Shown: in pieces, positions 5,529-16,271 of the stretch
Numbering within the stretch: the first letter of the stretch is position 1
Layout of the letters: every line of letters begins with the position of its first letter
Assembly: GCF_026230195.1 (NCBI RefSeq)
Contig: NZ_CP036501.1
Span: 310,001 to 374,000 of the forward strand
Length of the DNA: 64,000 nucleotides
Direction: 5' to 3'
DNA from: Candidatus Paraluminiphilus aquimaris
GTDB lineage: Bacteria > Pseudomonadota > Gammaproteobacteria > Pseudomonadales > Halieaceae
Notes under the pieces: generated by a model
Told to the model about the DNA's origin: nothing
Databases searched by the model: none
The model's input: only the letters and a program-made list of their open reading frames with translations
Translations under genes and position numbers: made by a program

Positions 5529-5674
5529 AGTTTCCCCTTCAAGTGTGCCAATCAGTCTACGCCTTAATCATCGTAAAGTGTTGCCCGATCGTCCCGTGAG
5601 GCACTGACAGCTCTGGTAGCCTTGACACAACCGTCAGGGTTGGCGATAAAGACATTAAGAGATTGAGGTTTTTC

Positions 5675-6211
5675 ATGATTGAATTTCTAAACCCAGATGC
5701 GGCCGTTGGTGTTGAGCAAACACCCTACAATTTGTCGGTGTCCGTCGACGGTAGTGCGCAAACGACCATCGGCTTGTTGGCCAATGGATTCCCTGACTCC
5801 GTGGAATTTCTTAACCAAGTTGGCGAGGCCGTAGCCCGTCGCAGACCCGGCATCAATCTCAAAGCCTATAACAAAGGAAATGCCACCATCGCTGCACCTG
5901 AGAAGCTGCTTGGGGAAATTGGTGGCGACTGCGTTGGCGTCATCGCAGCCTACGGGCACTGAGGCTCCTGCACTACCGGCACCGTGCGTGACGGCATAAA
6001 CCTCGCAAAACTGGGTATTCCTGCAGTGGCACTAGTCACCGAGGAGTTTTGGTCCCAAGGCAACTTTGTTGCCGAATCACTCGGCATGTCTGACGTGCCT
6101 CGTGTTCAACTCCCCCACCCTGTTGCCGGTACGGGTTCTCAGAATATGACAGCGGTTGCCGATTCAGTGGCCGAGCAAATTCTGACGGCGCTTGAGGCGA
6201 CAAGTGACTGA
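5675..6211 (+). CDS. UGSC-motif selenoprotein, in-frame TGA read as selenocysteine 96
   Basis: Two open segments, 5675-5959 and 5963-6211, lie in the same frame and are separated only by TGA at 5960-5962. Read through, they give a 178-residue protein whose centre is AAYGH-U-GSCTTGTVRDG, the U-G-S-C motif that defines the UGSC (seleno)protein family. A hairpin with SECIS geometry begins 13 bases after the TGA. The sequence after TGA (INLAKLGIPAVALVTEEF) is clearly coding and collinear. ATG 5675 has GAGG about six bases upstream. The Sec/Cys pair two residues apart suggests a redox or thiol-binding site; the substrate is unknown. The stop codon overlaps the GTG of the next gene, indicating translational coupling. 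Ordinary gene finders would report two fragments or a pseudogene. Sec decoding depends on selA/selB/selC/selD elsewhere in the genome. Confidence 0.88.
5976..5994 (+). promoter_or_regulatory. Candidate bacterial SECIS hairpin
   Basis: In the mRNA just after the in-frame UGA, CCG (5976-5978) pairs with CGG (5992-5994), then a single G-A mismatch, then CAC (5980-5982) pairs with GUG (5988-5990). This leaves a five-base apical loop CGUGC (5983-5987) with G-U exposed at 5984-5985, 22-23 bases after the UGA. SelB-type elements need a small stem with a G-U in the apical loop at about this distance, so the fit is good. The assignment is by eye; no folding was computed. Confidence 0.7.
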
Positions 6212-7274
6212 TATTCTCTCCGCACGCGACGAGGAAGCGGCTCTTGAGGAACTCCACCGTCTAGGCTGCACGGATGGTTTGCCGGTTGTTATTCCCACCG
6301 CAGAACGTGTTTCTCGAATGGTGCTGGCCTCGGGGCTCGATGCGGACATGATGCTGGGAACAATGGGGCCTGGACACGGCATTGCCACCGTCGAAAAGGT
6401 CGCGATTGCCGCCGTTATGGCGGGATGTAAGCCAGATTACATGCCGGTTGTCGTGGCGGCTGTTAAAGCCGTCATCGAACCCGAGTTCGACCTCACCGAA
6501 ATGCAGGCCACCACGCACTGCACGGCACCCTTGATTATCGTCAATGGACCTGCGAGACACACCTGCGGACCTATTGCATCAGGCACGGGCGCCCTCGGCC
6601 CAGGCCACCGAGCGAACGCGACGATCGGTCGAGCGCTCAGACTCACTATGATCAATATTGGCAAGGCACGACCTGGCAGCTCTGATATGGCGCTCCTAGG
6701 TCATCCGGGAAAGTTCACCTTCTGTCTTGCAGAGGATGAGGAAGCCAGTCCTTTCACCCCACTTCACGTCAGCCGCGGCTTTGAGGCAGACGACAGTGTC
6801 GTAACTGTATTAGGTGCAGAGGCGCCCCACTCAGTTATCTATGCGGGTAATGGCGACGACCCCAATAGCTACAAATCCTTACTTGAGTTGCTGGCGATGG
6901 GACTTGCAAACCCCCCGAGTAATAACGGCACACTCACCGGCGGCTGCGCCACGGTCGTTCTTAACCCAGAGCACACAGCTATTTTGCATGGTGCCGGACT
7001 GACACGTGAGGACATCGCGCAAGAGCTGTATGAGCGTAGCTTTGTAGAAGCGAGTATCGTCAAGCGCCTATTCAGCCAATTCGCTGGGGCAAATCCGCAA
7101 GATCGCATGGCATTTAAAGGTCCGGAGCAAATTTTAATCCTGCAGGCGGGCGGCTCAGGCGTGTATTCGATGGTTATGCCATCTTGGTGTGTGGGAGCAC
7201 ACGCTAACGCAGCCGTCAGTGTTAAAGTGGAAGCTGATCTGTTCTGCGAGATCCCGGGTCTAGCAACTGCCTGA
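6204..7274 (+). CDS. Conserved partner protein of the UGSC selenoprotein, unknown family
   Basis: A 356-residue cytoplasmic protein starting at GTG 6204 (GAGG six bases upstream) and overlapping the selenoprotein stop by eight bases. I do not recognise a catalytic family. It is rich in motifs that look strongly constrained: GCTDGLPVVIPT near the N-terminus, MGPGHGIATVEK, MAGCKPDYMPVV, TTHCTAPLIIVNGP, HTCGPIASGTGALGPGH, a GHPGKFTFCLAEDEEASPF stretch and QAGGSG near the C-terminus. The repeated Cys, His and Gly-rich loops suggest a metal, thiol or cofactor site. The overlap with the UGSC gene argues that the two products act in one complex or on one substrate. There is no signal peptide or membrane segment. 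Function is unknown. Confidence 0.7.
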   Translation: MTDILSARDEEAALEELHRLGCTDGLPVVIPTAERVSRMVLASGLDADMMLGTMGPGHGIATVEKVAIAAVMAGCKPDYMPVVVAAVKAVIEPEFDLTEMQATTHCTAPLIIVNGPARHTCGPIASGTGALGPGHRANATIGRALRLTMINIGKARPGSSDMALLGHPGKFTFCLAEDEEASPFTPLHVSRGFEADDSVVTVLGAEAPHSVIYAGNGDDPNSYKSLLELLAMGLANPPSNNGTLTGGCATVVLNPEHTAILHGAGLTREDIAQELYERSFVEASIVKRLFSQFAGANPQDRMAFKGPEQILILQAGGSGVYSMVMPSWCVGAHANAAVSVKVEADLFCEIPGLATA

Positions 7275-7305: not shown

Positions 7306-8466
7306 TCAGTTAGCCAACACTTCGCCGGCTTCGCCGTTACCATCCAGCACAAACATCTCTGGGTTGAGGCTAAAGCGCTCTGTGTAGGTGAGCAACTGTT
7401 CGCGTAACGTGTCGATCGAGTCTTTGTGAATGAGTGTCACGGTGCATCCACCAAACCCGGCGCCCGTCATGCGAGCCCCCAAAACACCCTCAACGCCACT
7501 TGCAATGTCAACCAGACAGTCGAGCTCAGCACAGCTCACCTCAAAGTCGTCTCGCAATGACAGATGTGATTGCGTCATCAGCGCGCCAAATTGGGTCAAG
7601 TTTCCCGCCCCAAGGGCCGCTGAGGCATCAAGCACGCGTGCAGTCTCTGTAATAACGTGACGGCAACGGCGGTACACCACCTCAGACAGCTCGCCACCAC
7701 AGGCCTCGAGTGCCTCAATACTTACATCCCGAAGTGCCTCAACGGTCGGATCCTTTTGTTTAAAGACTAAGACACCGTCCTCGCATTGTGATCGGCGCTC
7801 ATTGTAGGCAGAGGACGCGAGCTCACGTTTGACCTCGCTGGAAATAATCACAATGCGGTAGTCACCCAGTGCCACAGGGATGCTCACATGTGACAACGTT
7901 CTGCAATCGAGCAGCAAAGCATGACCTTTGCGCCCAAGACCACTGGCGAATTGATCCATGATGCCGCACATAACACCGGCATAACGGTGCTCGACGCGCT
8001 GGCATAGAATTGCAATGTCGATACGACTCATCTCAAACTTGAAAATCGTTTGAAGCGCCACCGCGGTCGCAATTTCAAGTGCCGCTGAAGAACTCAGTCC
8101 AGCGCCCAAGTTTAAATTACCGTCGATCACTGCCTCAAACCCTGTCGAGATCAATCCAAGCAATCTCAGCTCTTCCACAACGCCTAAGACATAACACGAC
8201 CAATGACCGGGTTCGGGCCTCTTAAAATCCCCCAACGAAACGTCAATCAGCTCGCCGAACCGGCTTGAGGCAATTCTAACTCGCTGATCCACTCGCGGAC
8301 GGATACCTAGGTAGACCCCCCGGTCGACCGTCATAGGAAGAACGAAGCCGTCGTTAAAGTCGGTGTATTCACCAATGAGATTGACCCGCCCCGGCGCCAT
8401 AATCACCCGGACGCCGTCCGCTGAACCAAAGGTATCTGAAAAATAAAGCCGAACCGTGTCGAGCAT
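7306..8466 (-). CDS. galK: Galactokinase
   Basis: A 386-residue GHMP kinase that phosphorylates galactose to galactose-1-phosphate in the Leloir pathway. The galactokinase signature GRVNLIGEYTDFNDGFVLP lies near the N-terminus, the ATP-binding GHMP motif is LGAGLSSSAALE, the CGIMDQFAS segment carries the catalytic Asp, and the C-terminal motif is ARMTGAGFGGCTV. Length is normal. GAGAAGA precedes ATG 8466. galT lies 1.2 kb away on the same strand, separated by an oppositely oriented lipoprotein gene, so the two are not co-transcribed. Confidence 0.97.
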   Translation of the reverse strand: MLDTVRLYFSDTFGSADGVRVIMAPGRVNLIGEYTDFNDGFVLPMTVDRGVYLGIRPRVDQRVRIASSRFGELIDVSLGDFKRPEPGHWSCYVLGVVEELRLLGLISTGFEAVIDGNLNLGAGLSSSAALEIATAVALQTIFKFEMSRIDIAILCQRVEHRYAGVMCGIMDQFASGLGRKGHALLLDCRTLSHVSIPVALGDYRIVIISSEVKRELASSAYNERRSQCEDGVLVFKQKDPTVEALRDVSIEALEACGGELSEVVYRRCRHVITETARVLDASAALGAGNLTQFGALMTQSHLSLRDDFEVSCAELDCLVDIASGVEGVLGARMTGAGFGGCTVTLIHKDSIDTLREQLLTYTERFSLNPEMFVLDGNGEAGEVLAN

Positions 8467-9650: not shown

Positions 9651-10697
9651 TTAGCGCGTTTTGTAATGCACCTGTGAAACAGCGCGCAGTCTCGCGGCGC
9701 TCTCTTCTGGCGTTAAATCACGCTGCGGCTCAGCTAACATCTCATAGCCCACCATAAACTTTTTCACGGTCGCTGAGCGTAGTAAAGGCGGGTAGAAATG
9801 CATGTGCCAATCCCACTGGGGGTAGTCTGCCCCGTCCGTTGGCGACTGATGCATACCCGCTGAATAAGGGAAGCTGCACTCGAAAAGATTGTCATATCGG
9901 GTGGTCAGGTTCTTAATAATATCGGCAAGGGCGGAGCGTTCTTGTGTTGTCATCTCACCAAGATGACGCACCTGCCGCTTACACATCACAAGCGCCTCGA
10001 AAGGCCAATTAGCCCAAAACGGTACGAGAGCGACGAAACTTTGATTTTCACAAATAATCCGCTCACCGCGTTCCTGCTCGACCCGCCAGTAATCGCCCAA
10101 TAATGTCCGACCCGTTTTTTCGAGGTGTTCTCGCATTCGCTCAGACTCGAGTCGAACCTCATCCGGGATACTTCGCTGCGCCCAAATTTGACCGTGAGGA
10201 TGAGGATTACTGCACCCCATGATCTCGCCCTTATTTTCAAATATTTGAACGTGGTTAATGTTCTCTGTGGCGCTCAGCTCAAGGTACTGAGAGGTCCAGA
10301 GGTCCACCACTAAGCGGATATCTTCTACTGGCATCTCTGGCAGAGTTAGGTCGTGACGCGGCGAGAAACAGATCACCCGGCAAATGCCCGACTCGCCCTC
10401 GGAACGCAACAGTTCATGCTCATCGATGCGGTCCATAGACCCGTCAGGCAGCAGCGCGCTGAAGTCATTCTGAAAAACATGCGGCCCCGTGTAGACAGGG
10501 TTGCGCTCGCCACCGGCCCGTTCGTTGCCTGGGCAAAGGTAACAACCAGGGTCGAACGCAGCCCTCGAATCGCTGATCGTCGATTCTTGCTTTCCCTGCC
10601 AAGGACGCTGCGTACGATGTGGCGAGACCAATACCCAACGGCCGGTCAGCGGATTAAATCGGCGGTGAGAGTACTGGCTGGTATCGAAGGTGCCCAA
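9651..10697 (-). CDS. galT: Galactose-1-phosphate uridylyltransferase
   Basis: A 348-residue GalT that exchanges UMP between UDP-glucose and galactose-1-phosphate. The catalytic HPH motif is in [12 protein letters not shown], the N-terminal [17 protein letters not shown] is typical, and Cys-containing CYLCPG fits the zinc site. Conserved GMHQSPTDG and HMHFYPPLL follow. The start is an unusual TTG at 10697, supported by alignment to the expected N-terminus; an in-frame stop lies just upstream. It begins ten bases after the stop of the PhoD-like gene, so translation is probably coupled to that gene. Confidence 0.95.
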
Positions 10698-15023: not shown

Positions 15024-16271
15024 TTAATCACTGTCCACGATGGGGTTCGCCGCTTTCACATAAGCACCGTCTTTATCGATTGCCCAGTTCCCGGTCGATC
15101 GCTTGAGTTGCTCCCGCGAGGCAATGACCCGAATAAACGGGTGGTTAGGATCCTTCGCTTCGAAGTGATTAACGTAATGAACAATCAATTCTCCCAGCAC
15201 CGTGTCATCAAAAATCAGTGCATCCGAATAACCCGCTTCATAGTCGCCCGGCTGCGCGGTAATGGCTTCTGAATAAAACGACTTAAGATCCTCGAGCGCC
15301 ATTTTTAACCACAAAGGCTCAGGGAACGACTGCGTAACGTCATCAGCCCAGGACGTCAAACCCTCAACGATGTCGGGAATAGGAGACTCACATACCCCAA
15401 CCGTTGTGCGTCCTCGCCGCTTTAAACTAAGTTCATACCAAGGGGTTAACGCACCGACTTCTTGAGAAAGACGTCCCAGCCAGGACTCGTCATCGCGCTT
15501 GCGCTGAAAACTCACGGGGCAGGCAGGCGGTGGTGTATCGATGTCAGGGAGGTCGATGGGATAGTCCTTGAGAACCGGCCCCTGCTCAGCGTCGAGTAAT
15601 GCCAAGGCACGCTTTATGACCCCGGTTTGAAAAGCTTTATCAGAAGGTTTCCCAAGTGGTCTACCCAACGGAAAACTGACCCAGAGAATACGCGGTGGCT
15701 TCATGGCCTCGGCAATTTCACGGAACAGGGCAATGCCCGCGGTCTGAATGCCCTCAGACTCAAGGTAGTAGGAAATACCGCAGACAGTCCTCGAGCAGTT
15801 GGGACAAACAGGGACAATGAAGGCGGCATCAACACCGTCAGCCTTCAGTAGCTTTGCGAGACCTCGCACATTGGCTTCGTAGACATCGGGCAGCATACCG
15901 CCACCCATAAAACTGTAATTGACGTCCGCGAGACGACCAATGACTCCCTCTGACTCAAGCTCTTTGAATCGATCAACAGGGAACACCACGTTGATATCTT
16001 CCTGAAAACCGCTTCGGTCGTAATTCACCGAGGCGTGGGTCATTAAGATGTCAGACGAGGCAAGGTCTCTCGGTAAGGCTCGGTAGCTCGAATCGGCAAA
16101 TTCGAAGTTAGTGTCCTCGCGAAAATTAAGCCCTGCGGTGGTGATGATCGCGATTTTCTTTTCCGAGAGAGGCTTAGTGTTTGCCACCCAGGGGAGCTCA
16201 CCCAAGGGAGGCAGTAGCTTGCTCATTAGGTGATTGCGCTCGTACTCAGGCAGATCCACTAGCTTTACCAT
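15024..16271 (-). CDS. Glycine/sarcosine/betaine reductase component B-like protein, Cys form
   Basis: A 415-residue protein resembling GrdB, the selenoprotein B subunit of glycine, sarcosine and betaine reductases. The family pattern runs THASVNYDRSGF, VVFPVDRFKELESEGVIG, FMGGGMLPD and LLKADGVDAAFIVPVCPNCSRT. In Clostridia the active site carries selenocysteine in a UxxC motif; here it is Cys156 and Cys159 (VCPNC), so no recoding is needed. Cys164 and a Cys in VGVCESP may also take part. Aerobic bacteria lack the rest of the reductase, and none is seen here, so an alternative thiol-based role is likely. It is the last gene of a three-gene operon with the VTT protein and the dioxygenase, with gaps under 50 bases. 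Confidence 0.78.
   Translation of the reverse strand: MVKLVDLPEYERNHLMSKLLPPLGELPWVANTKPLSEKKIAIITTAGLNFREDTNFEFADSSYRALPRDLASSDILMTHASVNYDRSGFQEDINVVFPVDRFKELESEGVIGRLADVNYSFMGGGMLPDVYEANVRGLAKLLKADGVDAAFIVPVCPNCSRTVCGISYYLESEGIQTAGIALFREIAEAMKPPRILWVSFPLGRPLGKPSDKAFQTGVIKRALALLDAEQGPVLKDYPIDLPDIDTPPPACPVSFQRKRDDESWLGRLSQEVGALTPWYELSLKRRGRTTVGVCESPIPDIVEGLTSWADDVTQSFPEPLWLKMALEDLKSFYSEAITAQPGDYEAGYSDALIFDDTVLGELIVHYVNHFEAKDPNHPFIRVIASREQLKRSTGNWAIDKDGAYVKAANPIVDSD

Follow-up and report, generated by a model that had tools for sequence, protein, structure and literature searches.

Glycine reductase holds a pyruvoyl group on a second subunit, GrdE, and the title of a reference indicates the same for proline reductase. 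In GrdB, the selenocysteine-containing subunit of the former, the pattern quoted is UxxCxxC, and thioredoxin takes part in the glycine reductase cycle (PMC13188914). A second group of selenoproteins, the UGSC-containing family, contributed 255 selenocysteine (Sec) and 21 cysteine sequences to the 2008 GOS survey, where it ranked high in abundance among selenoproteins, fifth in the survey's table; a fusion of UGSC to a conserved domain designated Unknown_1 was reported there as well (PMC2398784). A 2020 algal paper places UGSC among the least widespread selenoproteins in algae. The family is named in a review from 2022 and again in one from 2026, which counts it with those of largely uncharacterised function.

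Does a UGSC protein act by itself? Could it share more with GrdB than its selenocysteine? We analysed a UGSC gene of Candidatus Paraluminiphilus aquimaris together with its relatives in other genomes. The initial annotation had described this gene as a good entry into a redox or thiol system yet to be characterised, which is fair; the family itself is long known, with publications going back to at least 2008. The product, as a selenoprotein, falls within that known family; the present analysis adds a constant partner gene and a link to thioredoxin. The overlapping partner gene, the thioredoxin-fused forms among relatives and the distant likeness to GrdB and PrdB were all missed by that annotation, and none of the open-access titles found on UGSC, NF041046 or PF24696 concerns the partner or the thioredoxin fusion.

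The window, that is, the whole stretch of 64,000 nucleotides that was analysed, contains the UGSC gene at positions 5675 to 6211 of the forward strand. Read from the sequence and its translation, a single frame runs from ATG 5675, with a Shine-Dalgarno-like GAGG (5665–5668) six bases before it, across an in-frame TGA at 5960–5962 to a TGA stop at 6209–6211. It encodes 178 residues with Sec at position 96 and a cysteine, C99, at +3; the motif around the TGA is YGH-U-GSCTTG, as had been claimed. The proposed membership in the UGSC family is borne out by Pfam model PF24696, which matches with 137.2 bits against a cut-off of 25. The NCBIfam model NF041046 reaches 106.2 bits on the window protein, below its cut-off of 125. 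Since the latter is an equivalog model, narrower than PF24696, the branch represented by the window lies outside NCBI's narrower definition of the family and inside that of Pfam. The genome carries one UGSC gene.

Is the internal TGA translated? The initial annotation had argued from a reading frame that continues cleanly through it. The open frame is indeed present, but as an argument it is not decisive, since the window, both strands counted, has 2348 TGAs, of which 6 are equally open, with 95 codons upstream and 82 downstream; we therefore rejected openness as proof of selenocysteine. At the corresponding place in other loci the codon is TGA in 79 of 82 cases and TGC in three, in a set that includes the window itself (L024) and counts one TGC gene twice (L025, L028). 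A second set of copies, which shares at least five with the first and in which places occurring under two ids were used once, yielded 31 TGA, 4 TGC and 2 TGT codons; here 37 of 38 rows were scored, and a piece without a residue at the Sec place (L171) was set aside. Cysteine codons are thus the sole alternative to TGA among the 82 and the 37 scored copies, in agreement with the earlier expectation of Cys homologues. Homologues continue past this position rather than ending at it, and independent assemblies carry the same TGA. Sequence comparison strongly supports TGA 5960–5962 as an in-frame selenocysteine codon. One Cys-type copy (L025/L171, genome G277) has a TGA where its relatives have Trp, with its two halves in different frames, which suggests gene decay or a faulty assembly.

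A gene of this kind was also said to need the selenocysteine machinery. We tested for it as a set, and selA, selB, selC (tRNA-Sec) and selD are all present in the genome with scores over their cut-offs. selA scores 575.7 bits, selB 347.5 bits (393.2 together with its neighbour) and tRNA-Sec 72.5 bits against a cut-off of 47, and these three lie in one stretch, from 2,328,920 to 2,332,420; selD, at 1.81 Mb, scores 408.1 bits. Two of the three outcomes that would have spoken against the initial annotation, a genome lacking these genes and homologues that stop at the TGA, were looked for and are absent. The tRNA-Sec model matched nine further places in the genome, all under the cut-off. It also matched all 14 control genomes, five of them over the cut-off, so that the evidence lies in the score and in the neighbouring selA and selB, not in the bare match. 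Over their cut-offs, selA was found in one of the 14 controls, selB in two and selD in two.

Behind the TGA, a hairpin of the form CCG-G-CAC-(CGUGC)-GUG-A-CGG can be drawn at 5976–5994 of the forward strand, as the initial annotation had noted. Its stem arms CCG/CGG and CAC/GUG flank a G-A mismatch, and its apical loop, CGUGC (5983–5987), begins 20 nt after the UGA and has G in second place, followed by U. The bacterial SECIS model, as described in one source, has a loop of 3–9 nt with a G within its first two positions, a stem of 4–16 bp, a distance of 16–37 nt from the UGA and an energy of −7.5 kcal/mol or lower (PMC13188914). Set against this model, the hairpin has a loop of 5 nt with G second, six pairs with one mismatch, and a distance of 20 nt, in agreement with the rules for loop, stem and spacing. 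The hairpin and its G-U loop stand; its folding energy is ordinary and makes a weak argument alone. The 23-nt hairpin reaches −6.0 kcal/mol (z 0.26) against the −7.5 of the energy rule, and the 50-nt stretch reaches −9.8 kcal/mol, but in another fold (z 0.99). Folding energy was rejected as proof of a SECIS on these z values. A Cys homologue (L026) also folds strongly in the same stretch (z −2.55), so that a fold alone proves nothing. Rfam, searched around the UGSC gene, gave only two chance-like matches up to E 10.

It is comparison across loci, not energy or openness, that lifts the hairpin and the TGA above chance. Codons +6 to +10 after the TGA (GGC ACC GTG CGT GAC) are identical in 74 of 76 unique loci, and four of the five residues that they encode have four or six codons available. 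The two exceptions are distant copies, L022 and L023, which keep only GAC and have at the same place GUGCA-GUC-UGCAC, a stretch that could form a hairpin of its own; on folding, L023 forms it and the 37 nt of L022 prefer another fold. Codons +1, +3 and +11 are conserved as well (81–87%). Outside +1 to +11, within the 51 codons listed for the 76 unique loci, the commonest codon accounts for 30–75%, except at Met, Trp and codon −3 (88%). Pairing in the stem was followed in an alignment of 53 of 77 sequences (the 76 unique loci and the window; 44 distinct rows), and all 264 cells were paired. One of the six stem pairs, at alignment columns 18 and 34, covaries, with 32 C-G, 11 U-A and 1 U-G; the other five are invariant and hence uninformative on pairing. 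The U-A rows all come from loci not labelled Gammaproteobacteria, by group labels taken from record titles, and may reflect a single event. That the gene product is a true selenoprotein made by UGA recoding is strongly supported on these sequence grounds.

A second gene lies directly downstream, at 6204–7274 of the forward strand, and overlaps the UGSC gene by 8 bases. It encodes 356 residues if read from GTG 6204, six bases after a Shine-Dalgarno-like GAGG (6194–6197); TTG 6192 is an alternative possible start. No Pfam or NCBIfam model matches this partner gene, and 37 of its relatives produced only stray Pfam matches, with E 0.045 and worse. Relatives were taken as the best 80 of 168 from a scan of genome contigs, and alignments of 35 UGSC and 37 partner sequences were chosen from the sequences in hand (L025 was excluded from the 35). 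Among named genomes, the best match of the partner is a Halieaceae MAG, 99% identical. Two cysteines, C75 and C174, are invariant in the 37 aligned sequences, and C348 is found in 90% or more of them. Direct comparison of the partner with UGSC revealed no likeness, nor did its comparison with GRDB, the Pfam family PF07355.

How constant is the pair? UGSC lies upstream of the partner, within 72 bases, in 79 of 80 loci, four of which retain no more than the tail of UGSC because the contig begins there; the remaining locus (L098) starts at a contig end, inside the partner. Among 398 genomes taken, from the nearest record titles, to be of the window's phylum, five are matched by the UGSC model and the very same five by the partner profile, with the window's own genome among them, and the two genes are adjacent in each. 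In a sample of 396 genomes centred on an actinobacterial genome, again with phylum presumed, UGSC was found in 29 and over the cut-off in 27, some genomes having three to five matches. Both genes are adjacent, in either order, in 27 of the 30 loci fetched from this sample. The other three are L155, with a weak UGSC (29 bits) and a partner, and L156 and L157, which were under the cut-off and in which neither gene was found. Adjacency, co-occurrence, gene overlap and fusions lead us to infer that UGSC and its partner are two subunits. In L154 and L182 the two probably form a single fused gene, the sequence staying in frame throughout if the Sec TGA is translated, and the Unknown_1 domain of the 2008 survey may be this partner.

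Several loci depart from the simple arrangement. In L155 the partner is preceded in frame by a UGSC-like stretch seemingly without the Sec/Cys motif (GDMGTSSA), a UGSC that is degenerate at best. In L170 a single UGSC goes with two partner copies. An extra partner copy at L176:13110–14033 (reverse strand) has no UGSC beside it in the 1.1 kb and 5 kb of contig searched; the same contig also holds a normal UGSC-partner pair. Locus L090 comes from a MAG titled Klebsiella pneumoniae, which is unexpected for this pair and possibly a mislabelled bin.

The partner carries an N-terminal thioredoxin-like CxxC domain in 15 of the 37 scored copies of the second set. This extension spans about 115–180 residues, with CxxC and a later VP; L140 and L152 have CPTS in place of CxxC. 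A profile of the 15 domains matches solved thioredoxins with E values down to 3.3e-7, CxxC aligned on CxxC. Pfam models recognise the individual domains less uniformly: the thioredoxin model gives weak matches in 8 of 15 (best E 5.2e-4) and TraF matches 9 of 15 (best 3.2e-5). In the UGSC proteins that accompany these fused partners the motif is ADUGSCTSC in 13 of 15, ADUGSCMTC in L168 and SDCGSCTSC in L167, all of the form U/C-x-x-C-x-x-C; in the window protein a G stands where the third Cys would be. No thioredoxin domain is present on the window's own partner, and the same holds for the 80 loci as far as lengths show.

Two further observations concern these relatives. In L168 (genome G311), UGSC and the thioredoxin-fused partner adjoin genes that by eye are selB- and selA-like. 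Three flavoprotein disulphide reductases of the Pyr_redox_2 type are located no more than 3.5 kb from the partner, in loci L051, L167 and L184; these were picked by eye among 26 loci.

Apart from UGSC, the partner is the sole gene cluster common to all 80 loci. Gammaproteobacterial loci have crotonase and aldo-keto reductase genes as neighbours, and other loci have nitrile hydratase, SDR and others, many of these genes being named by eye. The neighbours differ by clade, and we rejected the neighbourhood as a source for naming the substrate. Nitrile hydratase alpha and beta genes, identified with Pfam, lie near the UGSC pair at L178:9861–11230 and elsewhere, and a nitrile hydratase alpha-like cluster occurs in 24 of the 40 loci not labelled Gammaproteobacteria. 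Further along the window, by eye, genes for a galactokinase and a galactose-1-phosphate uridylyltransferase occupy 7306–8466 and 9651–10697 of the reverse strand, and a metallo-hydrolase-like gene separates the two.

Given the constant partner and the thioredoxin link, a reductase of two subunits that depends on thioredoxin is the best working explanation, and we consider it fairly probable that UGSC is the Sec subunit of such an enzyme, made by UGA recoding. In outline, SelB would bring Sec-tRNA to the UGA at 5960–5962, guided by the hairpin at 5976–5994. UGSC would be the small catalytic subunit and the product of the overlapping downstream gene the other subunit. Sec96, placed at a helix start in an alpha/beta fold of roughly flavodoxin type, would act on a small substrate bound by the partner, attacking or reducing it. 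A selenenyl sulfide would then form, most simply between U96 and C99, and would be reduced by thioredoxin, a role suggested by the thioredoxin-like domain that is fused to the partner in relatives. The working principle would be close to that of glycine reductase and proline reductase; UGSC bears a weak resemblance to their Sec domain.

Could UGSC instead be an ordinary selenoprotein thiol oxidoreductase, a peroxidase or disulfide reductase working directly through U96-C99, with the partner as a protein substrate or scaffold? UxxC is a usual redox motif, and a Trx-like fold was expected for UGSC in the 2008 survey (PMC2398784). Contrary to that expectation, the structure model of UGSC (mean pLDDT 92.9) predicts a five-stranded alpha/beta fold in which Sec96 adjoins a helix start at residue 97. 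No thioredoxin appears among the best 50 of 1679 structure matches (E up to 10), and on this ground we rejected a thioredoxin fold for UGSC. The best matches in the PDB are flavodoxin-domain proteins (E 1.5e-4, TM 0.47), those among the 50 listed having TM 0.33–0.52, with TIR domains, lumazine synthase and others further down; at TM values mostly under 0.5, none of these PDB matches is convincing, and sequence relatives of UGSC in the PDB appear only at E 1.1 and worse. The UGSC profile finds no match in the fused thioredoxin-like domain (P 0.11). That domain, moreover, seems to fill the thioredoxin role already, and a plain thiol oxidoreductase would presumably not need pairing with one 356-residue protein. 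Direct thiol chemistry of this sort seems to us rather unlikely.

A transfer or lysis reaction is another alternative, and a quite improbable one. Here, Sec would be a nucleophile or ligand towards substrates such as metal-carbon or halogen compounds, and thioredoxin would do no more than keep it reduced. The two invariant and one nearly invariant cysteines of the partner would be in line with such chemistry, as would the catabolic neighbours found in some clades, such as nitrile hydratase and crotonase. The structure model of the partner (mean pLDDT 88.8) also shows, in Foldseek, a weak likeness to class I fumarase and cyclic amide hydrolases. These fold matches are poor, however, with TM under 0.3, and the search of the PDB with the partner model returned nothing convincing (best E 1.2e-3). 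HisF came up separately as a PDB sequence relative of the partner (E 0.0052 over a short stretch) and was taken as chance. Finally, the idea of a broken gene, with the TGA as a genuine stop codon or an error of sequencing, is hardly credible: frames open around a TGA are not rare in the window and the energy of the hairpin alone is unremarkable, but the TGA recurs in 79 of 82 loci with Cys codons as sole alternative, the codons at the hairpin are invariant, and selABCD are in the genome.

The preferred reading, a thioredoxin-dependent reductase of two subunits, raises the question of a relation to GrdB and PrdB. With HMMER filters on and E values up to 10 admitted, PF07355 had no match in the 35 UGSC members. 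Profile-profile alignment of UGSC with GRDB by hhalign gave P 9.6e-4 over 69 columns and, in a second alignment, 5.8e-4 over 59 columns, values reached only once both input alignments had been widened; the inputs were 70 UGSC and 17 GRDB sequences (17 of 20). The register places Sec on Sec and C+3 on C+3. The score of 28.7 in the first alignment compares with a maximum of 24.6 in 20 other families, and that of 29.9 in the second with a maximum of 24.9 in 150 column shuffles. The 21 decoys included the N-terminal piece of UGSC as a positive control (score 208), the partner, and several that are probably shadow frames. The hhalign probability of the likeness is 22–29%, and with smaller alignments it was not significant (E 0.2; 0.057 when trimmed). 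Among PDB sequences, no relative of GRDB scored better than 0.33. Common descent of UGSC with GrdB and PrdB is plausible from these alignments.

The window also encodes a GrdB/PrdB-like protein of its own, at 15024–16271 of the reverse strand (PF07355, 43.4 bits), with Cys (TGT) in the motif PVCPNC; its relatives in other genomes have TGA at that place. PF07355 relatives occur in 14 of the 20 UGSC-bearing genomes searched (L109–L128). Of 20 such loci 18 were scored at the Sec place, with TGA in 17 and TGT in one, that of the window's genome.

It is possible, and we put this forward only tentatively, that the pair is a selenoenzyme of aquatic bacteria, so far undescribed, with two subunits and a dependence on thioredoxin. 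It would be a distant branch of the glycine/proline reductase principle, with a second subunit of uncharacterised fold, and would reductively cleave a bond in a common dissolved metabolite. With its partner and its thioredoxin link, a family of uncharacterised function becomes a testable candidate for a two-subunit reductase, and the constant partner and the fused thioredoxin-like domain imply that the UGSC family should be assayed as a pair.

How does this locus compare with known systems? With the published UGSC family (PF24696; NF041046; PMC2398784) it shares the sequence family, the U-G-S-C motif, the existence of Cys homologues and the occurrence in aquatic bacteria, and it adds the constant partner and the thioredoxin fusion, both absent from the available part of the 2008 account (PMC2398784). 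With thioredoxin-like selenoproteins it has the UxxC motif in common, and the predicted fold differs. From GrdB and PrdB (PF07355, TIGR04483) it is set apart in that PF07355 does not match, the partner matches no known subunit family, the window UGSC has G where GrdB has its third Cys, and the host is presumably aerobic and marine. Like GrdB and PrdB, UGSC has its Sec in UxxC and a further subunit; its link to thioredoxin has a counterpart in the glycine reductase cycle, and many UGSC relatives display the full UxxCxxC pattern quoted for GrdB (PMC13188914).
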